From assembly GCA_027923965.1 (NCBI GenBank), contig AP026969.1, forward strand, positions 4,216,001 through 4,280,000: 64,000 nucleotides of DNA. Reading direction: 5' to 3'. The notes under the pieces were generated by a model. It did no database searches. It was not told the DNA's origin and was given only the letters and a program-made list of their open reading frames with translations. How positions within the stretch are numbered: the first letter of the stretch is position 1; every line of letters begins with the position of its first letter. Made by a program: the position numbers and the translations under genes. This DNA is from Comamonadaceae bacterium OS-1 (GTDB lineage Bacteria; Pseudomonadota; Gammaproteobacteria; Burkholderiales; Burkholderiaceae_C). Of the stretch, positions 4,140-20,325 are shown piece after piece.

Positions 4140-5693
4140 TTAAGCGAACGTCTTCTTGAAGGCGGTGACAGCAGCGTGCAACTCAGCTTCCGCTTCCTTG
4201 TCCAGTGCTTTCGAGGCTTCAATCTTGGCCAACAAAGCCGCGCTCTTGTCCTTGAGGTAGCCGTGCAGGCCGTGCTCAAAAGCCAGGATCTTCTTGACAT
4301 CGATGTCGTCCATGAAGCCCTTGTTCACTGCGAACAAAGTGGCACCCATGAGGGACACGGACAAGGGGCTGTACTGGGCTTGCTTGAGCAGTTCGGTCAC
4401 GCGGGCACCGCGGTCCAGCTGCTTGCGGGTCGCTTCGTCCAGGTCCGATGCGAACTGGGCGAAAGCCGCCAATTCACGGTACTGCGCTAAGTCGGTACGG
4501 ATACCGCCAGATTGGCTCTTGATGATCTTGGTCTGTGCGGCGCTACCGACGCGAGACACCGAGATACCGGCGTTGATCGCAGGGCGGATGCCGGCGTTGA
4601 ACAGCGAGGTTTCCAGGAAGATCTGGCCGTCGGTGATCGAGATCACGTTGGTGGGCACGAAAGCAGACACGTCACCGGCTTGCGTTTCAATGATGGGCAA
4701 AGCCGTCAAGGAACCGGTCTTGCCCTTGACTTCACCCTTGGTGAAGGCTTCGACGTAGTCGGCATTCACGCGGGCGGCGCGTTCCAGCAGGCGGCTGTGC
4801 AGATAGAACACGTCTCCAGGGTAGGCTTCGCGGCCTGGTGGACGGCGCAGCAGCAAGGAAACCTGGCGGTAGGCCACGGCTTGCTTGGACAAATCGTCGT
4901 ACACGATCAGGGCATCCTGGCCGCGGTCGCGGAAGTATTCGCCCATGGTGCAGCCGGAGTAGGCCGAAACGTACTGCATGGCAGCCGATTCAGAAGCCGA
5001 AGCCGCCACCACAATGGTGTATTCCATCGCACCAGCCTGTTCCAGGGCACGCACCACGTTTTTGATCGACGAGGCCTTTTGGCCAATCGCGACGTACACG
5101 CAGAACATGTTCTGGCCCTTTTGGTTGATGATGGCATCGATCGCCACAGCGGTTTTACCCGTCTGGCGGTCACCAATGATCAACTCGCGCTGGCCACGGC
5201 CGACGGGCACCATGGCATCGATCGACTTCAAGCCGGTCTGCATGGGCTGGTCCACCGATTTACGGGCAATCACGCCGGGCGCGACTTTTTCGATCACGTC
5301 GGTCATCTTGGCGTTGATCGGGCCCTTGCCGTCGATCGGCTGGCCCAGTGCGTTCACCACGCGACCGAGCAGCTCGGGACCGACCGGCACTTCCAGAATG
5401 CGGCCCGTGCACTTCACGATGTCGCCTTCGGAGATGTGTTCGTATTCGCCCAAAATCACGGAGCCGACCGAGTCACGCTCCAGATTCAGTGCCAGGCCGT
5501 AGGTGGGCTGGCCATCGCTACCGGCGGGGAACTCCAACATTTCGCCCTGCATCACGTCGGACAGGCCGTGCAAACGGCAGATACCGTCGGTCACGGACAC
5601 GACGGTGCCCTGGTTGCGGATATCGGTTTGGGCCGTCAGGCCTTCGATACGGCTCTTGATCAGCTCAGAAATTTCTGCGGGATTGAGTTGCAT
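4140..5693 (-). CDS. atpA: F1Fo ATP synthase subunit alpha
   Basis: This 517-residue subunit carries the non-catalytic nucleotide sites. The P-loop GDRQTGKT is at residues 174-181, and the signature [17 protein letters not shown] comes in the C-terminal half. The N-terminal helix ([18 protein letters not shown]) contacts delta. It follows atpH after 87 bases, the widest gap among the F1 genes, and no hairpin is evident there. Length and motifs are normal. Confidence 0.98.
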
Positions 5694-5780
5694 GACTCTT
5701 TCCTTCTCTTTCTTTAGTTAGCAAACAACCGGAGCCATGGGCTCTGGCCGAAAACGCTGGCACAGACCTTAACCTGGTGG

Positions 5781-6311
5781 TTAAGCGGTCAGGGCCAATT
5801 TCATATGTTCCAGGCGGGCTTTGATCGAGGTGTCCAACACCTCGTCACCCACCACGACGCGAATTCCGCCAATCAACTCCGGCTGCAAAGCCACTGTGAG
5901 ATTGAGCTTGCGTCCAAAACGCTTTTCCAGCGCCGACGAGACGTTGGCCAGAGCATCTGCGTCGATCGCAAAAGCACTGAACACGGTCGCGTCAGAGGAG
6001 CCGCTCCGGGCATTTTTCAATGCACGGAACTGGGTAGCAATCTCGGGAAGAGCGGCCAGGCGCCCGTTCTCGATGACCATGCGCAAAAAGTTTTTTGCAG
6101 CATCTGGCAGGGCCGACTTGGCCACACCGGCTACCACCTCAAACACCTGGTTCACCTCAACCTTGGGGTTGTCGGCGAACTGGAGCAACTGGGGGTTGGC
6201 TGCAATCGCGGCCAATTCATCCACCCATCCGGCGGTGCCGTCCAGGTCAGACGCAGTGGCCTTGAACAGCGCTTCGGCGTAAGGACGGGCAATGGTTGCT
6301 ATTTCAGCCAT
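5781..6311 (-). CDS. atpH: F1Fo ATP synthase subunit delta
   Basis: This 176-residue OSCP-type subunit of the peripheral stalk joins the top of F1 to subunit b. The N-terminal six-helix domain starts with [12 protein letters not shown]. The C-terminal signature is [20 protein letters not shown]. It follows atpF by 14 bases. Confidence 0.96.
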
Positions 6312-6325
6312 GGTCGTTCTGCCGC

Positions 6326-6796
6326 TCAGAGTTCGGTTTGGAGACGGTTCAGCAAGTCCGCGTGGACACCGGCATTGACTTCCTTGCGGAGAATCTGCTC
6401 GGCACCCTTCACCGCCAATGCAGCCACTTGCTCACGCAGGGCCTCACGGGCTTTGACGGTTTGCTGCTCGGCTTCGGCACGGGCTGCGGCGACGATCTTG
6501 TTGCCCTCTTCCGTGGCACGGGCCTTGGCCTCTTCCACGATAGTTTGGGCACGGCGATCGGCATCCGCCAAACGCGACGCGGTCTCGGTGCGCGACTTGG
6601 CCAGTTCGGCTTCCACGCGCTGGTTGGCGCTGGTCAGTTCGGACTTGGCTTTATCGGCGGCAGCAAGGCCGTCAGAGATTTTCTGCACCCGCTCGTCCAG
6701 GGCCTTGGTGATCGGAGGCCACACGAATTTCATCGTGAACCACACCAAAATCGCAAAGACGATGGCCTGCAGAAACAGGGTTGAATTAATGTTCAC
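6326..6796 (-). CDS. atpF: F1Fo ATP synthase subunit b
   Basis: This 156-residue protein has one N-terminal membrane helix ([20 protein letters not shown]) followed by a long charged, Ala-rich coiled coil. This is the classic peripheral-stalk architecture. Two copies dimerise and bind delta. Only one b gene is present, so the enzyme has a b2 rather than a b/b' stalk. Confidence 0.96.
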
Positions 6797-6834: not shown

Positions 6835-8098
<1,264 letters not shown>

Positions 8099-8118
8099 AT
8101 TTAAGTCCATCAATCCTG

Positions 8119-8631
8119 TTAAGCCGTACGTTGGCGTTTGGAGCGAAACATCAGCGCAATCCAAACCACCTTCATGGTCACTACAAAGCCGACCAACAAG
8201 GCCAGCCAATTCAACTCAGGAACCAGTCGGGGTGCCGCAAACAGCATTGCTACTGTGACGGCAATCTTGACCAGCTCCCACACAAAAAACCCCGCCATCG
8301 CCGCACCGGGAATTGCCCGGGCCAGCTTGCCGGTAACACCGCGCGCAAACAGCGCTGCAGGCACCACCACCGCAATGGCTCCATACCCCGCCGACCAACC
8401 CATAACGGGCTTGCCGGTCACCAGCCATGCGGCTATTGCCACCAGACACCCGGTGGCCAACTGGCCCCACACAATCGCCCAAATGGACATCATGGGAGTC
8501 TGCTGGCGCCAGGTCTGCGCTTGCGCAGCCGTCAGGGGCTTGAAATCGTCTTCAGCTACCCCATCTCTTAATTCATCTCCCAGATTCGCAAGTGCTCTCG
8601 GAGGAGCTTTTGGGGGCATTCCTGGTGACAT
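8119..8631 (-). CDS. atpI: ATP synthase assembly protein I
   Basis: This is a protein of about 170 residues. A hydrophilic N-terminal segment is followed by four hydrophobic helices (around WAIVWGQLATGCLVAIAAWL, AIAVVVPAALFARG, GFFVWELVKIAVTVAMLF and LLVGFVVTMKVVWIALMF). AtpI assists c-ring assembly and is not part of the finished enzyme. It is first in the operon and just downstream of the promoter. ATG 8631 is preferred; an ATG at 8676 is possible. Confidence 0.88.
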   Translation of the reverse strand: MSPGMPPKAPPRALANLGDELRDGVAEDDFKPLTAAQAQTWRQQTPMMSIWAIVWGQLATGCLVAIAAWLVTGKPVMGWSAGYGAIAVVVPAALFARGVTGKLARAIPGAAMAGFFVWELVKIAVTVAMLFAAPRLVPELNWLALLVGFVVTMKVVWIALMFRSKRQRTA

Positions 8632-11185: not shown

Positions 11186-11866
11186 ATGACCACCACCCAC
11201 CTCCTCGGCCGCGTGGACTACCTGCCCACGGTGGAAAAAATGCAGGAATTCACCCTCCAGCGCCCAGCAGATGAGCGTGACCAGCTATGGATTTGTGAGC
11301 ATCCGCCGGTGTTCACCCAGGGGCTGGCGGGCAAGGCCGAACATCTGCTGCTGCCGGGCGACATTCCGGTGGTGCAGGCCAACCGGGGCGGCCAAGTGAC
11401 CTACCACGGGCCGGGGCAGGTGGTGGCATATCCGCTGCTGGATTTGAAGCGCGCGGGCTATTTCGTCAAGGAATACGTGTTCCGGCTGGAAGAGGCTGTG
11501 GTGCAAACCCTGGCCCATTTCGGCATCACCGGCCTGCGCGTGCCGGGGGCACCGGGCATCTATGTGCGCCTGCAAGACCCGTTTGGCCACGCCCGGCTGG
11601 AGGCGGGCTTTACCGCCCAACAATTGGAGTCTGACCCCTATTATTTGGGCAAGATTGCCGCGCTGGGCATTAAGGTCAGCCGCCACTGCACCTACCACGG
11701 GGTGGCGCTGAACGTGGCCATGGACCTGGAGCCTTACAGCCGCATCAACCCCTGCGGCTACGCCGGGCTAAAGACGGTGGACATGGCCAGCCTGGGCGTT
11801 GCCGTGTCCTGGGCCGAGGCGGCGCAGGTGTTTGCCCAGAAGCTGGAACGTTACTTGGCGGCTTAA
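11186..11866 (+). CDS. lipB: Octanoyl-[acyl-carrier-protein]:protein N-octanoyltransferase
   Basis: This 226-residue enzyme moves octanoyl from ACP to lipoyl domains, the first step of lipoate assembly. The signature [20 protein letters not shown] is present, with catalytic Lys163 ([12 protein letters not shown]) and Cys190 ([11 protein letters not shown]). ATG 11186 was chosen because anything upstream lies inside the R2 repeat. Its stop overlaps the stop end of the convergent Mrr-like gene. Its usual partner lipA lies 8.6 kb away. Confidence 0.95.
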
Positions 11867-12438
11867 CGGGCGGCCTGAAGCAGCAGCTGCGCCAGCGCCA
11901 CGTCGGCCACCAGGGTGATGCCCTGGGCCTTGGCGAACTGCTCGGCGGTGTCGGTCACCCCGGCAATGCTGATGTAGGTGCAGGCCGCAGCGTTCTGTGT
12001 TTCCTTGGCTGCTGCCAGATCGCGCAAAGCTTCCACCCCGTGGATCGCGGCCTTCCAGCGCTTGGCGGCCACCAGGGTGGTCTGGCCGTCTTTGGACAGT
12101 TGCAAATCCGCCGCCTTGCCGTTCAAACGCGCCACCGTATAGCCCTTGGCGCGGTAGGCGGCATCCAGCGCATCGGCGAAATCGCGCCAGGGCATGGCCG
12201 TGGCTTTGGCCAAGGTGTCGGCCACCGCGGCGCTGCTGGGCAGGTCCCATTGGCGCGAGGCGGCGATCACCCCGATCACCAAAAATGGCATCGTTCCCAG
12301 CAGGCCAAACGGAATATAGGCTTTGGGCAGCAGCGCAAACGACAGCAGCCCAAACACCAGCACCAGCAGCATGCTGACCCACCACGGCGAACGCAGCAGC
12401 ACTGCAAAAAGAGAGTTTTTGGCCATTTTCAGTTTCAT
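11863..12438 (-). CDS. Membrane-anchored Mrr-like restriction-endonuclease-fold protein
   Basis: This is a 191-residue protein. Two hydrophobic helices occupy about residues 19-62 ([30 protein letters not shown]). The remainder resembles the Mrr_cat endonuclease-like fold (PF04471 type): [19 protein letters not shown], then [20 protein letters not shown] and an Ala-rich helix. In the family the catalytic core is D-x(n)-(E/Q)-x-K. Here D and the lysine in AAKRWK are present, but the central residue is Ala, so nuclease activity is doubtful. It overlaps lipB by four bases at the 3' end. Function unknown. Confidence 0.7.
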
Positions 12439-12460
12439 GGCCGCAGTGTAAAGGCCCGGG

Positions 12461-13042
12461 CTACAGCGCCTGGAACACCTTCAGCGCCGCGTAGGCATCG
12501 TTGGCGGCGTACAGCATCTGCGTGGGCGTGAGCTGGGCCACGGCCCAGTTGGAGGTGGTGGTTTTTTTGGATTTGTGGAAGCGCTGGCGCAGCACCACGC
12601 CCACAGCGGCGCGCACGCCCATCGAGGTGCCATAGCCATCCTTGCGGAAAATCGCGTTCAAGTCCAGCACATTGCGCATGGCAACGCCGAACTTGGCGTG
12701 GATCTGCCCCCGGTCCTGCTCCAGGCCAAAGCCTACCTTGCGCACTGCATCCGACTGCAAGATCTCCAGCAGGCAGGGGCGGCAGTCGCTCCGGTGCATC
12801 TGGAACAAATAGGCCTTGGTGGGCAGCGCAAACTGCACCACGTGGGGCCCGTCACTCACCTCGCCAGGCGCAAACGTGGGCTTGGCCTCGGTATCAAAAC
12901 CCACCGCGCCCGCGGCCAAGATCTCGGCTGTGGCAGCGGCAAATTCGGCCTGCGTGGCGGGCACGAAGATGCGGTCCAGGGCCAGGCCCTGCATGGGCGG
13001 CAGCAGAGCGGTTTGGGCTTTGGTGGGGGCGGTGTTTTTCAT
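12461..13042 (-). CDS. 3'-5' exonuclease domain protein (RNase D-like fold)
   Basis: This is a 193-residue single DEDD-type exonuclease domain. Motif I is GFDTEAKPTF, motif II lies around VLDLNAIFRKDG, and motif III appears as LTPTQMLYAANDAYAALKVF with a Tyr four residues before the Asp. HRDC domains of true RNase D are absent, so it is a compact stand-alone exonuclease of unknown substrate. ATG 13042 was preferred; the open frame continues upstream but would cross the divergent ChvE-like promoter region. Confidence 0.85.
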   Translation of the reverse strand: MKNTAPTKAQTALLPPMQGLALDRIFVPATQAEFAAATAEILAAGAVGFDTEAKPTFAPGEVSDGPHVVQFALPTKAYLFQMHRSDCRPCLLEILQSDAVRKVGFGLEQDRGQIHAKFGVAMRNVLDLNAIFRKDGYGTSMGVRAAVGVVLRQRFHKSKKTTTSNWAVAQLTPTQMLYAANDAYAALKVFQAL

Positions 13043-13126
13043 GTGGGGAAGGTGCAATACGGGTGAAGGGCAAAATAACCGGTCTGCTACGATGCCGTAA
13101 CAAAAAAACACAACGGGGACAACAAC

Positions 13127-14212
13127 ATGCAATCCGACCGCAGACGGCTGGTGGGCGGCTTGGTCGGCAGCCTGCTCGCGCTGAGCGCCTGGTCCCAGAC
13201 CGCATCCAAAACCGACAAGGGCGAAAAAGGGGTGATCGGCATCTCCCTGCCCACCATCACCTCGCTGCGCTGGGTGATCGAAGGCCTGGCCATGACCCGG
13301 TCACTGGACAAACTGGGCTACCGCGCCATTTTGCAGTACGCCAACGACGACATCCCCACCCAGACCGCCCAGCTCACCGACATGCTGGCCCAGGGTGCCA
13401 CCGTGCTGGTCATCAGCGCGATCGACGGCACCCAGCTGGCCCCGGTGCTCAAAGCCGCTGCCGACAAGGGGGTCAAGGTCATCGCCTACGACCGGCTGAT
13501 CCGCGGCAGCCCCCACGTGGACTACTACACCAGCTTCGACAACTTCCAGGTCGGCGTGCTGCAGGGCAGCGACATTGCCAACCGCCTGGGCCTGGCGGCG
13601 GGCAAAGGGCCATTCCGTATCGAACTGTTTGGCGGCTCGCCCGACGACAACAACGCACACTTTTTCTACAACGGCGCCATGTCCGTCCTCAAGCCCTACC
13701 TCGACAAAGGCCAGTTGGTGGTCGGCTCGGGCCAGATCGGCATGGACAAGGTCTCCACCCTGCGCTGGAGCGGCTCGGTCGCCCGCGCGCGGCTGGCGGG
13801 CATCCTGGACAAGCACTACGCCAAACAGCACCTGGATGCCATCCTGTCGCCCTACGACGGCATCAGCATGGACCTGATCGAGGCGCTGAAAAAAGCCGGA
13901 TATGGTCAAGGTGGCCAGGCGCTCCCCATCATCACCGGACAAGACGCGGAGCTGCCCTCGGTGCGCTCCATCGTGCGCGGCGAACAAACCTCCACCGTCT
14001 TCAAAGACAACCGCGACCTGGCCCAGGTCACCGCCACCATGGTCGATGCCCTGCTGACCGGCAAAAAGCCCAGCATCAACGACGAGAAGACCTACCACAA
14101 CGGCGAGAAAATCGTGCCCGCGTTTCTGCTCAAGCCCGTGCTGGTGGACGTGAAGAACTGGCGCGCGATGCTGGTGGACAGCGGGTATTACAAGGCGGAG
14201 CAGTTTCGGTAA
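13127..14212 (+). CDS. ChvE-like periplasmic sugar-binding protein, orphan
   Basis: This 361-residue protein is of the periplasmic binding protein type 1 class. A signal peptide occupies about residues 1-24 (RRRLVGGLVGSLLALSAWSQ). Two Rossmann-like lobes follow (GVIGISLPTITSLRWVIEG; LVISAIDGTQLAPVLKAAAD; DAILSPYDGISMDLIEALKK). It resembles ChvE and xylose-binding proteins. No permease or ATPase gene lies beside it. It may feed a transporter encoded elsewhere, or act as a sensor partner as ChvE does with VirA in Agrobacterium. A weak GGGGAC ribosome site precedes the start. Confidence 0.85.
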   Translation: MQSDRRRLVGGLVGSLLALSAWSQTASKTDKGEKGVIGISLPTITSLRWVIEGLAMTRSLDKLGYRAILQYANDDIPTQTAQLTDMLAQGATVLVISAIDGTQLAPVLKAAADKGVKVIAYDRLIRGSPHVDYYTSFDNFQVGVLQGSDIANRLGLAAGKGPFRIELFGGSPDDNNAHFFYNGAMSVLKPYLDKGQLVVGSGQIGMDKVSTLRWSGSVARARLAGILDKHYAKQHLDAILSPYDGISMDLIEALKKAGYGQGGQALPIITGQDAELPSVRSIVRGEQTSTVFKDNRDLAQVTATMVDALLTGKKPSINDEKTYHNGEKIVPAFLLKPVLVDVKNWRAMLVDSGYYKAEQFR

Positions 14213-14274
14213 GGGTGGGATAGAGTGCTTTGAGGCAATATGGTGTTCGTTGCAACCCACCACAAAAGGCTCCT

Positions 14275-14472
14275 ATGCGCACCACTTTGACTTTGGACGA
14301 AAGCCTGTTGGCCCAAACCCAGAAACTCAGCGGCCTGAACGAGCATTCGGCGCTGGTCAACGAAGCGCTCAGAGCCTTGATTGAACGGGAGAGTGCGCGG
14401 CAGTTGGCCTTGTTGGGTGGCATGGTGGCGGAAGTCGAAAATGTGCCCCGGCGTAACTGGCCGACAACTTAA
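14275..14472 (+). CDS. Orphan VapB-type antitoxin
   Basis: This 65-residue protein is too short for many ORF filters. It has the VapB N terminus MRTTLTLDESLLAQTQKLSG followed by HSALVNEALRALIERESARQ, and the C-terminal toxin-binding tail ends PRRNW. VapB proteins pair with PIN-domain VapC RNases encoded directly downstream. No PIN frame follows here: the next 110 bases hold only an R1 repeat. The toxin has probably been lost. Confidence 0.75.
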   Translation: MRTTLTLDESLLAQTQKLSGLNEHSALVNEALRALIERESARQLALLGGMVAEVENVPRRNWPTT

Positions 14473-14583: not shown

Positions 14584-17292
14584 TCAATCCACCAGCTTCA
14601 ACCCCACCGGCAGCGACTCGCCAAACACGCGCTTGGTGTCGGCCGCGTCCAGCGCGGTCACCTCGCGCACCATGGCGATCCAGCCGGGTGCTGCGCGGGC
14701 GGCGGTGAGGCGGTTTAGCACCTGCTGGCGCAGGGCCTCGGGGATGTCGCGGGCGCGGTCGCCGGTGGCGCGGGCGATTTGGGTGGCGGCGAATGCTGCG
14801 GGTTCGGCCTGGGACCAGTCGGCGGCCAGCAGGGCCTGGAGCCACTGCGCGGCCACTTCCGGCGGCACCACGTGGTGCAGGCTGGCGTAGAGCGGCTGGC
14901 GGGCACCGATGCGGCCCAGGGCCCACCAAGTTTGCGGGTTCTCTCCGGGTTTTTGCAGGCGCTGCAGCAGCCAGGTGCCCAGCTGCACCTTGTTGGCCAC
15001 CGACAGGCGCTCGAACGACGCGGCCATACGCAGCATGTCGTCCAGGCCCTGCATGCGCGGGCCGTCGGGCGTGGGCACGTCCTGCCCGCCCACGGGCTGC
15101 AGGTAGAAGGCGATGGCCTCGAACACCATGTCCTGCTGCTCGGCGGTGAGCCCCCCGGCGATGCGCCGCCACAGCGTCCACCATTCAGACCACTGCTGCG
15201 GCTCATGGCTGTGGGCGATGCCGGGTGCAAACAGCTCCCACATCTGCTGCACCCGCCAGTCGTCCAGCGGATGGCCAAAGCCGGGACGCAGGGCGTAGCC
15301 GGTGAGGTTGAACCACTGGCGCTCGTGCTGGGCGGTGCGGCGGCGGCGTTTGGCGCTGTCGAGCAGTTGGGCGAACAGGGTGCGCAAAAGGGGGGTGTCC
15401 CAGCCCTCGCGGCTGCCCAGCAGGCGCTCCAGGGTGGCGCGCAGCTGTTTGACTTCCTTGGCCTCCACGCCCTGGCTGCGGTCGCCGAAGACGCGGGCGA
15501 TGGCTACGCTGGCATCGGCCAGACGCGGGTGCGGCGCGGCTTCCACCACCACCGGGGCATCTCCGCGCAACTGGAATTCGAGTTGCCAGCGTTGCGCGGG
15601 GTCGTCCACGGCAATGCAGTGCATCTCCAGCGTGCCGACCTCGGTGAGCGCGGTGCTGAGCTGCACCAGCACTTCGCGGGCACTGCTGTCGCTGTGCACC
15701 ACGGTGGCGATGGGTGGCAGGCGCACGAAACCGCCGGTGGACAAATCGACCAGCGCGCCCGGCTGGGAACGGGTGTCGGTGACGCTGCTGGCCAGGTAGA
15801 AGCGCACCGGGCGGGCCAGGCGCAGGGCGAAGGTGCGGTCGGCCAGGGTGGTGGCGCGGCCCTCCTCCGCGCCAAAAGGCAGCACGCAGATGCCGCGCTG
15901 GCTGGTGATGCCGTCGTCCAGCACCAAAAAGTAGCTGCGCGCCGAGCCACCGCCGATGCGCGGGGCCTTGCCCGCACGGGCCAGGGCGTAGGCCACGGCA
16001 CCGCGCGCCACGGCGGCATCCAGGTGCGGGTTGTGCAGCAGTTGCAGCGGCGCAGTCGCCCAGCCGTTCAGCGTCTCATGCAGGCGTTGAACGAGAGATT
16101 CGGCATGGAACACCCCGCCGTTGAGCAGCAGTGCATCGGGCATCTGGCCGGGGTGGCGTTGCAAAAAGGCCGCGACGTGGCGGGTGATGGCTGCATCGCT
16201 GGCGTAGGGCAGGCCAAAAGCCACCAAGCCACTGCGGGCACGCTGGGGCTGGGCATCGGCGGCCACAGTGGGAAAGAAACCTTCGACCAGAATGCTATCT
16301 AAATCAGAGCGCAACAAGCTGGCGGAACGCGCGCTAGCTACCAATTTGCTCCCACTGCCCAGCAGGGTGACGGTGGTGGACTCCGGCGCACCGGGGCTCC
16401 ACAGCAGCTCCTTGGCGGCACGGCAGCGCTGGGTGAGCTGGGCGAGTTGCGCAGCAGACAAGCGCTCGGAGCCGCCCATGCGGGATTCCACCAGATGCGC
16501 CAGCGCCAGGTCCATGTTGTCGCCACCCAGCACCAGGTGGTCGCCCACGCCGGTGCGGGTCAACTTCGGCTCACCACCTACCAGATCCACGTCGATCAGC
16601 GTCAGGTCGGTGGTGCCGCCGCCCACGTCCACCACCAGCACGCGGCGGGTGGCGTGCAGATCGGCGGCCAGGGTGGCGCGGTGGTTGTAGACCCAGTCGT
16701 AGAACGCAGCCTGGGGCTCTTCGATCAGGCGTACCTTGGGCAAACCCGCCAGTTGGGCGGCTTGCAGCGTGAGGGTGCGTGCGCCTTCGTCGAAGGACGC
16801 GGGCACGGTGAGCACGATGTCTTGGTGTTCCAGCGGGGGGTGCTGGGCATTCCAGGTGGCGCGCACGTGGGCCAGGGTGCTGGCGCTGGCGGCCAAGGGG
16901 GAAACTTTGGGTATCTCGTCTGGCGCGCCCCAGGGCAGGATGGGCGCGGTGCGGTCCACCGCCGTGTGCGAGAGCCAGCTTTTGGCACTGGCCACCAGGC
17001 GGCCCGGCACCTGCGCACCCAGCTCCAGGGCGAAACGGCCCAGCACGGCGGATTCTGCGGATGGCCAGGGCAGTTGCACATCGGCAGCCAGCAGCGTGCC
17101 GGGCGCGGGGTGGAAGCGCACCGACGGCAGCAGCGGCAGCGCCGCCACCTCGCCCGCCGCCACGAGCTGGGGGATGGCGAAGATCTGGATCTTGGCCGCC
17201 CCGCGCGCCGCCGTGCTGGCGTAGGCCACTACGGTGTGGGTGGTGCCCAGGTCGATGCCGACAGTGAAGGCGGGCTTTGCTATTCTTTGCAT
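14584..17292 (-). CDS. Large Hsp70-family protein (DUF3731-type C-terminal region)
   Basis: This is a 902-residue protein. The Hsp70/actin-type ATPase domain fills roughly residues 8-520: phosphate loop 1 is VGIDLGTTHTVVAYAS, phosphate 2 is VVDVGGGTTDLTLIDVD, and the adenosine region holds LLNGGVFHAESLVQRL. The substrate-binding region of DnaK is not recognisable. The last 300 residues are Trp- and Arg-rich helices (RTAQHERQWFNLTGYALRPG, WSEWWTLWRRIAGGLTAEQQ) typical of the DUF3731 family. The start codon and first five codons lie in an R1 repeat. It is the last gene of the DUF2760-Hsp70-Hsp70 set. Function unknown; a dedicated chaperone is the likeliest reading. Confidence 0.85.
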   Translation of the reverse strand: MQRIAKPAFTVGIDLGTTHTVVAYASTAARGAAKIQIFAIPQLVAAGEVAALPLLPSVRFHPAPGTLLAADVQLPWPSAESAVLGRFALELGAQVPGRLVASAKSWLSHTAVDRTAPILPWGAPDEIPKVSPLAASASTLAHVRATWNAQHPPLEHQDIVLTVPASFDEGARTLTLQAAQLAGLPKVRLIEEPQAAFYDWVYNHRATLAADLHATRRVLVVDVGGGTTDLTLIDVDLVGGEPKLTRTGVGDHLVLGGDNMDLALAHLVESRMGGSERLSAAQLAQLTQRCRAAKELLWSPGAPESTTVTLLGSGSKLVASARSASLLRSDLDSILVEGFFPTVAADAQPQRARSGLVAFGLPYASDAAITRHVAAFLQRHPGQMPDALLLNGGVFHAESLVQRLHETLNGWATAPLQLLHNPHLDAAVARGAVAYALARAGKAPRIGGGSARSYFLVLDDGITSQRGICVLPFGAEEGRATTLADRTFALRLARPVRFYLASSVTDTRSQPGALVDLSTGGFVRLPPIATVVHSDSSAREVLVQLSTALTEVGTLEMHCIAVDDPAQRWQLEFQLRGDAPVVVEAAPHPRLADASVAIARVFGDRSQGVEAKEVKQLRATLERLLGSREGWDTPLLRTLFAQLLDSAKRRRRTAQHERQWFNLTGYALRPGFGHPLDDWRVQQMWELFAPGIAHSHEPQQWSEWWTLWRRIAGGLTAEQQDMVFEAIAFYLQPVGGQDVPTPDGPRMQGLDDMLRMAASFERLSVANKVQLGTWLLQRLQKPGENPQTWWALGRIGARQPLYASLHHVVPPEVAAQWLQALLAADWSQAEPAAFAATQIARATGDRARDIPEALRQQVLNRLTAARAAPGWIAMVREVTALDAADTKRVFGESLPVGLKLVD

Positions 17293-17334
17293 AGCTTGTC
17301 ACGCCGATGGAATAAGCACAGGGTGCCGATTTGA
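17276..17334 (+). repeat. R1 repeat overlapping the start of the 902-residue Hsp70 gene, copy 4
   Basis: GCTAT (17279-17283) and ATAGC (17291-17295) form the first stem. TGTCACGCCGATGGAATAAG and CACAGGGTGCC follow in standard R1 order. The Hsp70 ATG (17292-17290, minus strand) is inside this stem, so codons 1-5 are repeat sequence. Confidence 0.8.
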
Positions 17335-17350
17335 CTCCGAAATTTCGCCA

Positions 17351-19174
17351 TCAATCGGCACGCACCTCGAACTCCACCTTCCAGCCCTCGCCACCCGAGC
17401 GCGGCACGGCCAGCAGCTCCAGCGTACCGATTTCGGACACGCGGGCGTGCAGCTTCACCGGCACGACTTCACCGACCGCCCGGCCCTCGGCGGGCAGGGT
17501 GGCTTCGATCTCGGCCAGCTCTTGCAGCTCCTCAGAAGTCCAGAAGTCCAGCATCTGGCCCACGGTGTCGTCGCGGCGCACAGACGAGCCAAAGAAGCGA
17601 AAGCGCACGGCTTCGCCCACCACCAGGCCGAACTCTTGGGGAGGCAGAGCGGCCTCGGTGCCCTCCTCCATGCCGAACGGGGCCACGCACAGGGCTTGCA
17701 CCGGCGGCTCCAGCCCTGGCACAGCGGGCATGGCGGATTCCACGCCCACGTAGTAGGCCATGGCCGTGCCGCCGCGGATGCGGATGCCCTGGCCGCCGCG
17801 CACGGTGCCGTAGTAGGCGGCACCCCGGGCCACGGCGAAGTCCAGGTCCGCACCGTCGAGCAGGCGGGCCTCCGGTGCGCCCTCGGCCTGCAGCCAGCCG
17901 TTGAGCGTGGCCAGGGTGCGCTGCACCAGCAGCTCGGACTTGAACACGCCGCCGTTGAACAGCACGGCGGTGGGGTGCAAAAAGCTCGCGTCCTGTTGCG
18001 CCGCAAAGCCTTCCAGCGCGGCGGTAGCACCCACCTGGCGGCCCAGCAGCGCGGCCAGGTGGCGGGTAACCGCCGCGTCCTGCGCATACGGCAGGCCCAG
18101 CTGCGTCAGGCCCGCACGGGCGCGGCTCACGGGACGGGCCTGGCTGTCCACCTGGGGGAAGAAGCCTTCCAGGATGGTGGCGGTGAGCGCGTCGCGGGTC
18201 AGCTCGGCATTGATCGAGCCGCCGATCAGCCGCGCACCCCGGCTGGGGATGAGCAGCGGCACGGTGTGCACGTCTGCGTCGGTCAGCAGCTTTTCCTTGG
18301 CCAGGCGGCAGGCGTAGGTGAGGGCCCGCATCTGCCACGGATCCAGCGCCTTGCCCTCAGAAGCCAACTGGCGGGCCACGCCGTGGGCCAGGGCCAGGTC
18401 CATGTTGTCGCCGCCGAGCAGGATGTGCTCGCCCACGGCCACGCGGTGCAGTTGCAGGTTGCCGTCTTGCTCGACCACGGCGATCAGCGAGAAGTCGCTG
18501 GTGCCGCCGCCCACGTCCACCACCAGAATCACGTCGCCCACCTTGACCTGCTTGCGCCAGCCGCCACCGCTCTGGGCGATCCAGCTGTACAGGGCGGCCT
18601 GGGGTTCTTCCAGCAGGGTCACGCCGGTGTAGCCCGCAGCCTGGGCGGCTTCGGCCGTCAGCTCACGGGCGGCCGGGTCGAAGGAAGCGGGGATGGTCAC
18701 CGTCAGCGCCTGCTCGCCAAACGGTGCGTCGGGGTGGGTGTGGTTCCAGGCATCGCGCAGGTGCGCCAGGTAGCGGGTGCTGGCTTCCAGCGGGGAGATG
18801 CGGGCGACTTCGTCGGGGGCATCGTTCGGCAGGATGGCTGCGCGGCGGTCTACCCCGGCGTGGCAGAGCCAGCTTTTGGCGCTGGACACCAGGCGGATAG
18901 GGGTTTGCGCGCCATGGCTGCGGGCCCACTCACCCACCACGGCCAGCGTGTCGCTGTGCCAGGGCAGGGTCAGGTCGCCGTCGGCAAATTCGCTGGCATG
19001 CGGCAAATAGATGAAGGACGGCAGCAGCGCGTAGTCCTGCACCGCGCCGGGGGCGCTTTGCTGGGCGATAGGCAGGATTTGCGGGGGCGCTTCGGGGTTG
19101 GAAAGATCCACCCACGACAACGCGCAATGGGTGGTGCCCAGGTCGATGCCGATGGCAAAACGGGGGGCGCTCAC
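17351..19174 (-). CDS. Hsp70-family protein, second paralogue
   Basis: This 607-residue protein is almost entirely an Hsp70-type ATPase domain: IGIDLGTTHCALSWVDLS (phosphate 1), VVDVGGGTSDFSLIAVV (phosphate 2), ILLGGDNMDLALAHGVA and LFNGGVFKSELLVQRTL. A short beta-rich tail ends EIGTLELLAVPRSG. It aligns block for block with the ATPase part of the 902-residue neighbour but lacks the DUF3731-type extension. The pair therefore arose by ancient duplication. The start overlaps the DUF2760 stop by four bases, showing translational coupling. No DnaJ or GrpE gene is nearby. Confidence 0.88.
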   Translation of the reverse strand: MSAPRFAIGIDLGTTHCALSWVDLSNPEAPPQILPIAQQSAPGAVQDYALLPSFIYLPHASEFADGDLTLPWHSDTLAVVGEWARSHGAQTPIRLVSSAKSWLCHAGVDRRAAILPNDAPDEVARISPLEASTRYLAHLRDAWNHTHPDAPFGEQALTVTIPASFDPAARELTAEAAQAAGYTGVTLLEEPQAALYSWIAQSGGGWRKQVKVGDVILVVDVGGGTSDFSLIAVVEQDGNLQLHRVAVGEHILLGGDNMDLALAHGVARQLASEGKALDPWQMRALTYACRLAKEKLLTDADVHTVPLLIPSRGARLIGGSINAELTRDALTATILEGFFPQVDSQARPVSRARAGLTQLGLPYAQDAAVTRHLAALLGRQVGATAALEGFAAQQDASFLHPTAVLFNGGVFKSELLVQRTLATLNGWLQAEGAPEARLLDGADLDFAVARGAAYYGTVRGGQGIRIRGGTAMAYYVGVESAMPAVPGLEPPVQALCVAPFGMEEGTEAALPPQEFGLVVGEAVRFRFFGSSVRRDDTVGQMLDFWTSEELQELAEIEATLPAEGRAVGEVVPVKLHARVSEIGTLELLAVPRSGGEGWKVEFEVRAD

Positions 19175-19710
19175 AGTTCCACCTCGGCAGCCGCGATGAC
19201 GCGCGGGTCGTGGCCTTCGGTGGTGCGGGGCAGGCGCACGTCGGTGGCTTTCCAGCCGGGGTGGCGCAGCGTGCCGCGGAACGGAGCGTGGCCCACCACG
19301 TTGCCGGTCAAGCGTACAGCGGCGGCATCAAACCCGGCTTCGAGCACCACACGGCTGCCTTCGGCCTCGGGGCGCGCGGGGGCCAGGGTGAAGTGTTCCT
19401 GCAAGACTTTGCGGCAGCCGGTGTGCACCAGGCGGGCAGCACCGCCGATGTCGGCATCCGAATACGCGGCCACGTCTTCCTGGATGAAGTCCACAAACCG
19501 GGCTTCGCGCTGCAGCAGGCCCAGCAACTGCAGGGCGGCATCGGGGGTGGCGACCTTCAGAACCGGGGGTGGCGGGGGGGCGGGAGGCGCAGGCGGAGCG
19601 GCGGGCTCGACACCATGGCGTACATCCTGCACCTTGGCGGCCAGCGTGCTGTCGCCCAAAACGGCAAAAGCGAGCGACAGACGGGCGAAAAATGAGGGGG
19701 GGTTGTTCAT
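19171..19710 (-). CDS. DUF2760 protein
   Basis: This is a 179-residue protein starting MNNPPSFFARLSLAF. A Pro/Ala-rich linker (residues 38-52) is followed by the conserved DUF2760 region (ALQLLGLLQREARFVDFIQE, DIGGAARLVHTGCRKVLQEH). The family has no assigned activity but is a recurrent neighbour of the paired Hsp70 genes seen here. It is the first gene of the set and overlaps the next by four bases. It may be the client, adaptor or nucleotide-exchange partner of the two Hsp70 proteins; this is inference from co-occurrence only. Confidence 0.8.
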   Translation of the reverse strand: MNNPPSFFARLSLAFAVLGDSTLAAKVQDVRHGVEPAAPPAPPAPPPPPVLKVATPDAALQLLGLLQREARFVDFIQEDVAAYSDADIGGAARLVHTGCRKVLQEHFTLAPARPEAEGSRVVLEAGFDAAAVRLTGNVVGHAPFRGTLRHPGWKATDVRLPRTTEGHDPRVIAAAEVEL

Positions 19711-19812: not shown

Positions 19813-20325
19813 TTAAGCCTTGGCTTCCAGTTGGGCCGCCACGGCTTCGACAGCCTTGTCGGTGGCTTCCTTGGCGGAAGCTTGGGCGGTTTCAAACGCA
19901 GTGGTGGCAGCGGCCACAGCCGACTTCACCAGAGCCACAGCGTTTTCGCTGCCAGCAGGTGCGTTCTTCACAGCGGCATCCACCAGGGTCGCCAGTTCGG
20001 CCTTGGCGCCGGAGGTAGCGGTTTCCACATAGGTGCGCACTTCGGTGCTGCTGGTGGTGGCAATGGCTTGCACGTGGCGCAGGTAGGAAGCAGCCTTTTC
20101 AGGAGCAGCCTTGGCTACCTTGGTGACCAGCTCGACCAGTTCCTTGGGGTCTTTGATCGAAGCAGCGGTCAAAGCAACTTCTTCGGTTTCTTGCAGCGAG
20201 GTCTTGGCGGCTTGCAGGTTCAGCTTGACCAGGGCTTGCGCGCTGTCGAACAGGGAGTTGGACAGATCAAACAGGCTGGCAACAGCGGATTTTTGGTTGG
20301 CGGTGATTTGTTCAAAGTTCAGCAT
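19813..20325 (-). CDS. phaP: Phasin
   Basis: This 170-residue protein has the phasin N terminus (MLNFEQITANQKSAVASLFD) and amphipathic helices rich in Ala, Lys and Glu throughout, with no Cys and no signal peptide. Phasins coat polyhydroxyalkanoate granules. The length and the FEQ...A...L pattern match the betaproteobacterial PhaP family. A perfect palindrome lies 46-62 bases upstream of the start, where the PhaR repressor could bind. Confidence 0.92.
   Translation of the reverse strand: MLNFEQITANQKSAVASLFDLSNSLFDSAQALVKLNLQAAKTSLQETEEVALTAASIKDPKELVELVTKVAKAAPEKAASYLRHVQAIATTSSTEVRTYVETATSGAKAELATLVDAAVKNAPAGSENAVALVKSAVAAATTAFETAQASAKEATDKAVEAVAAQLEAKA

Follow-up and report, generated by a model that had tools for sequence, protein, structure and literature searches.

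According to the usual teaching, each Hsp70 cycle is served by one chaperone, one J-protein and one exchange factor. Here we describe three adjacent genes of Comamonadaceae bacterium OS-1, which encode a DUF2760 protein and two Hsp70-type ATPases, referred to as Hsp70a and Hsp70b. They lie in a window of 64,000 nucleotides (contig AP026969.1, positions 4,216,001 to 4,280,000), the whole stretch of DNA that was analysed. The trio stays together across alpha-, beta- and gammaproteobacteria and is near-strictly co-inherited, and we judge the chances to be even that the three genes form one dedicated Hsp70-type chaperone machine with its own partner in place of J-protein and GrpE.

Among the described systems, DnaK-DnaJ-GrpE has in common with the trio the nucleotide-binding domain, the catalytic residues and, in the modelled Hsp70b, the fold of the beta substrate-binding domain (SBD-beta). 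Unlike in DnaK, the lid of the two Hsp70s is absent or replaced and no DnaK linker is recognisable, and the structural alignment of Hsp70b with DnaK contains about 20% identical residues. The trio further differs from that system by the lack of a J-protein or GrpE gene in the window, by the two unequal Hsp70s and by the DUF2760 partner. HscA, the Hsp70 of Fe–S assembly, provides the best NCBIfam models for the two proteins (79.8 and 75.8 bits), but these scores are far under the HscA cut-offs (620-743 bits) and the host genome has a separate HscA-like protein; neither protein is a DnaK or HscA equivalog in NCBIfam, with at most 79.8 bits compared to 620 or more. No isc family is found among the 25 commonest neighbour families of the trio. 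The eukaryotic Hsp70-Hsp110 pair likewise consists of two related ATPases with the Hsp70 fold that differ in length and are kept together, and Foldseek matches of the modelled Hsp70b include structures of Hsp110 (Sse1). In contrast to Hsp110, the extension in the trio is DUF3731, and any Hsp110-like exchange would be putative. The Pfam families DUF2760 (PF10816) and DUF3731 (PF12531) are matched by the trio members well above cut-off. No paper naming DUF2760, DUF3731, PF10816 or PF12531 was found in the open-access library that was searched, and passages of PMC8910936 and a look-up of terms in PMC8215388 yielded nothing on the trio. This agrees with the original prediction, made from the sequence of the window, which knew of no assigned function. 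The genes are arranged as follows:

19171-19710, minus strand: DUF2760 protein, 179 amino acids; N-terminal helix, Pro-rich linker, PF10816 domain, C-terminal AEVEL tail
19171-19174, minus strand: stop/start overlap of DUF2760 and Hsp70a, 4 bases; putative translational coupling
17351-19174, minus strand: Hsp70a, 607 amino acids, GTG start; nucleotide-binding domain and SBD-beta-like stretch, no lid
14584-17292, minus strand: Hsp70b, 902 amino acids, ATG start; nucleotide-binding and SBD-beta-like domains (about 8-577), helical DUF3731 domain (654-900)

The reading frame of DUF2760 is open to 19731, and the ATG at 19710 yields the 179-amino-acid form known from the database. Hsp70a and Hsp70b are separated by 58 bases from stop to start, while a DUF2760/Hsp70a overlap of the same kind occurs in 81 of 104 loci, among which Burkholderiales are heavily represented. 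Both the joint encoding of the two ATPases (607 and 902 residues) with DUF2760 and the four shared bases of the first two genes had been predicted and were found as such. The host genome (one contig, 5.12 Mb) contains six PF00012 matches, namely Hsp70a, Hsp70b, a DnaK-like, an HscA-like and a YegD-like protein, all three labelled by resemblance, and one frame of 369 amino acids. The genome-wide family search also gave six J-domain matches and one GrpE match, none of them within the window, as was expected from the absence of such genes noted earlier.

Membership of both ATPases in the Hsp70 superfamily follows from PF00012 scores of 62.7 and 52.5 bits at a Pfam cut-off of 20.6 (E-values of 2.6e-17 for Hsp70b and 3e-14 for Hsp70a), with matches covering only residues 130-296 and 156-330 of the two proteins. 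The Trp-rich DUF3731-type region ascribed to the larger one was recovered as PF12531 at residues 654-900 of Hsp70b (E=2e-106), where 13 Trp fall within 247 residues compared to nine in residues 1-653; DUF3731-Hsp70 proteins have further been named in SAR324, Acidobacteria and Neptunomonas. The further claim that neither Hsp70 has a recognisable DnaK substrate-binding domain stands for the Pfam family search and for the alpha lid (SBD-alpha), which Hsp70a lacks and in whose place Hsp70b has DUF3731. It does not stand for the structure model of Hsp70b, which matches the nucleotide-binding and beta substrate-binding domains of DnaK, so that a DnaK-like SBD-beta is predicted for this protein. The match stops at Hsp70b residue 577, beyond which helices and then DUF3731 follow. 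Hsp70a is homologous to Hsp70b (42% over 573 columns), and from this homology and a forced global profile alignment to DnaK, in which its end corresponds to DnaK 507, it appears to contain a stretch homologous to the SBD-beta of Hsp70b.

Residue columns were counted in 105 loci, of which two (Hsp70a) and 11 (Hsp70b) were omitted as short or missing. Nine of the 11 catalytic or nucleotide columns are unchanged in all 103 Hsp70a and all 94 Hsp70b sequences, and the equivalent of DnaK R151 is kept in 102 of 103 and 87 of 94, respectively. By these residues, both ATPase sites are complete. The equivalent of DnaK R167, the J-contact arginine, is an arginine in only two of 103 Hsp70a but in 75 of 94 Hsp70b. 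Due to this loss, DnaJ would be expected to fail on Hsp70a.

The third protein matches PF10816 with an E-value of 2e-53, and no known fold was detectable for DUF2760. An AEVEL-type C-terminal tail is present in 104 of 104 loci. The membrane segment is more variable, being membrane-like in 15 of these loci (L051, L055-L058, L061, L064-L067, L069, L070, L073, L111 and L146), intermediate in 33 and not clear in 56; the membrane-like forms in rows L051-L061 also carry a repeated charged linker. In L066 an open reading frame (ORF) of 137 amino acids (7870-8283) lies between DUF2760 and Hsp70a; it contains a DTGA stretch, which we presume to resemble a clan AA aspartic protease.

Co-inheritance was followed with DUF2760 and DUF3731 as markers in three partly overlapping genome samples. 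DUF2760 was found in 22, DUF3731 in 21 and both in 21 of 299 Pseudomonadota genomes; the respective numbers were 21, 22 and 21 for 150 genomes of the same family, and 10, 11 and 10 for 274 genomes of the same class. Neither marker matched in 14 control genomes. Pooling of the samples leaves 46 genomes with both markers and three with one alone (G026, G625 and G442), and in 42 of the 46 the two matches are less than 10 kb apart on the same contig. The recurrence of the trio in proteobacteria, stated in the original prediction, is borne out by these numbers, and the prediction thus passed its own refuting condition of a lack of co-conservation in other genomes. Two of the single markers are explained by contig ends, directly after Hsp70a in G026 and, in G625, within Hsp70a, where DUF2760 would follow.

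A survey of named loci, 80 of which were kept from 533 relatives, shows the trio complete and in order in 72, and the order is constant wherever all three genes are seen. In L076 and L084 Hsp70b is in place but truncated by the contig end; in L119 the truncation falls inside Hsp70a. L076 also has an ORF for a C5 DNA methylase (5378-6595) between Hsp70a and the beginning of Hsp70b. Hsp70b is not beside the DUF2760-Hsp70a pair in L088, L148 and L150 (Comamonas), L144 (Accumulibacter) and L111 (Methyloglobulus). A DUF3731 search of eight genomes, i.e. these five, two with complete loci (L147 and L132) and that of L119, gave a match in seven, and all five split loci have DUF3731 elsewhere in the genome. 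An ORF family of 353 amino acids (L053:4224-5285) is common to the distant loci L053 and L064 and is the sole non-trio family joining distant groups among 25 loci.

On plasmids, Hsp70b and DUF2760 queries hit the same 11 records, seven of them replicons of >1 Mb from Burkholderia and Caballeronia, and at least 80% of Hsp70b is covered in 10. Of four plasmid loci examined, two from Bradyrhizobium and one from Comamonadaceae have the full trio order, and that from Thiodictyon has the pair. The trio on the conjugative plasmid pCC829_3 of Bradyrhizobium barranii (L070) is flanked by trb and tra genes, and groES-groEL is located directly downstream of it on the second Bradyrhizobium plasmid (L073). 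Two viral-labelled contigs, for both of which a chimera or host flank is possible, contain an Hsp70b-like gene with DUF3731 near ORFs resembling phage tail genes (L239:2091-4994) and a lone Hsp70a-like gene (L240:9965-11818). No DUF2760 relative was found in viral contigs, including these two loci.

Pairwise distances of the three proteins correlate with r of 0.94-0.97 in 20 genomes and still with 0.73-0.88 after removal of the DnaK distance, a value as high being reached in none of 2000 permutations, which correct for kinship only partly. Judged by these distances, the three proteins co-evolve. Their correlation with DnaK distances (0.87-0.90, 20 genomes) points to much vertical inheritance within these groups. 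In a 41-row tree, Hsp70a forms one group (95/99) and Hsp70b requires two changes. A long branch, which carries a long-branch warning, parts the two from the DnaK, HscA-like and YegD-like rows (97/99). This topology makes an old duplication of Hsp70a and Hsp70b likely, with the root unsettled.

The trio is patchy, with 21 of 150 genomes of the same family, and it looks accessory at the present locus. Everything from an Mrr-like ORF through a phasin gene, trio included, lies between lipB and lipA in the window, L211 and L212. L213 and L215 have the trio with phasin and lipA, and no lipB within the fetched stretch. lipB and lipA are adjacent in L216-L218, from genomes without a DUF2760 match, and in L214 of the same genus. 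The stretch is missing at that place in these four relatives, and we infer that the trio was inserted between lipB and lipA. Besides the trio, the stretch holds an Mrr_cat ORF, a 3'-5' exonuclease, a sugar-binding protein, a VapB antitoxin ORF and the phasin (window 11863-14472 and 19813-20325).

We propose that in a dedicated machine Hsp70a and Hsp70b would act as an ATP-driven pair, in which Hsp70b could serve Hsp70a like Hsp110 serves Hsp70, by holding and nucleotide exchange. DUF2760 would occupy the position of a J-protein or adaptor, joining the two Hsp70s and placing the machine at the membrane in lineages with a membrane-like segment, while its AEVEL tail, a likely docking peptide, may dock into one of the Hsp70s. 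Clients could be stress-damaged or hard-to-assemble proteins. Only tentatively do we extend this to a machine of new design, in which a lidless Hsp70 would work with an Hsp110-like Hsp70 that has DUF3731 for a lid, and DUF2760, for which no known fold is detectable, would stand for the J-protein, with a membrane tie in some lineages and docking through the AEVEL tail.

Several observations weigh against a dedicated machine. The DUF2760 helix of the window shows only moderate hydrophobicity (moment no higher than 0.28), and a clear membrane segment is lacking in 56 of 104 loci, with 33 intermediate. DUF2760 was not found in the G442 genome, given as 99% complete, where a true loss is possible; a contig gap is possible as well, as the contig begins 1.7 kb before Hsp70b and Hsp70a is not within that 1.7 kb. 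DUF3731 was not found in the genome of L119, a metagenome-assembled genome of 2.8 Mb, and the Thiodictyon plasmid pTs485 (L071) has DUF2760-Hsp70a only, as judged from the plasmid and not the chromosome. Just 12% of bootstrap trees unite Hsp70b in one group. Finally, 75 of 94 Hsp70b retain the J-contact arginine, so that host DnaJ may still act on this protein.

The latter point, along with the six J-domain matches and one GrpE match of the host genome, would also suit ordinary accessory Hsp70 paralogues that use host DnaJ and GrpE for general stress help, with DUF2760 as client or minor regulator. The non-canonical Hsp70 MXAN_5323 of Myxococcus xanthus (925 amino acids), possibly a relative of Hsp70b, fits here too. 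According to PMC8265645, its gene is one of two exceptions among the hsp70 genes, the others being unchanged or lowered upon heat shock, and when four non-canonical hsp70 genes, MXAN_5323 among them, were deleted, each deletion reduced sporulation and oxidative resistance; another paper with this locus tag was not found in the open-access literature. We regard this explanation as rather improbable, since 101 of 103 Hsp70a have another residue at the position of the J-contact arginine and a fixed complex better accounts for DUF2760 being retained along with both Hsp70s. Less probable still is that the trio serves one particular membrane or surface complex as its chaperone or assembly factor, anchored at the membrane by DUF2760. 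The 15 loci with a membrane-like segment speak for it, but no recurrent client gene adjoins the trio in 25 loci and Pfam matches of 136 neighbours are scattered over 144 families.

A role in anti-phage defence could be read from the patchy and at times plasmid-borne presence of the trio, from the genes annotated as anti-phage around the Thiodictyon pair and from the methylase in L076, as well as from a weak PADLOC match to the candidate PDC-M61B and one neighbour match each to the MzaA and RT_UG29 models. The PDC-M61B match, however, sits on the Hsp70 nucleotide-binding stretch, and at 1e-15 the neighbourhood of the trio (10 families in 136 ORFs) shows no excess of PADLOC matches over controls (17 families in 137 ORFs), which were crude, being stretches of the same 20 genomes, with broad models in both lists. 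Viral contigs, too, yielded no DUF2760 relative. We consider defence very unlikely, and gene context does not support it in this sample. Hardly any weight is left for a polyhydroxyalkanoate-granule chaperone tied to the adjoining phasin gene, which lies directly upstream and in the same orientation in the window, L074-L077 and L099, and directly downstream and converging in L079. In the remaining 98 of 105 loci, some with short flanks, two phasin queries had no match.

A trio that works without its own J-protein and GrpE would show another way of driving the Hsp70 cycle. Two unnamed Pfam families, DUF2760 and DUF3731, would gain a testable role, and the pairing of a lidless with a lid-replaced Hsp70 raises the question of what purpose the lid serves.
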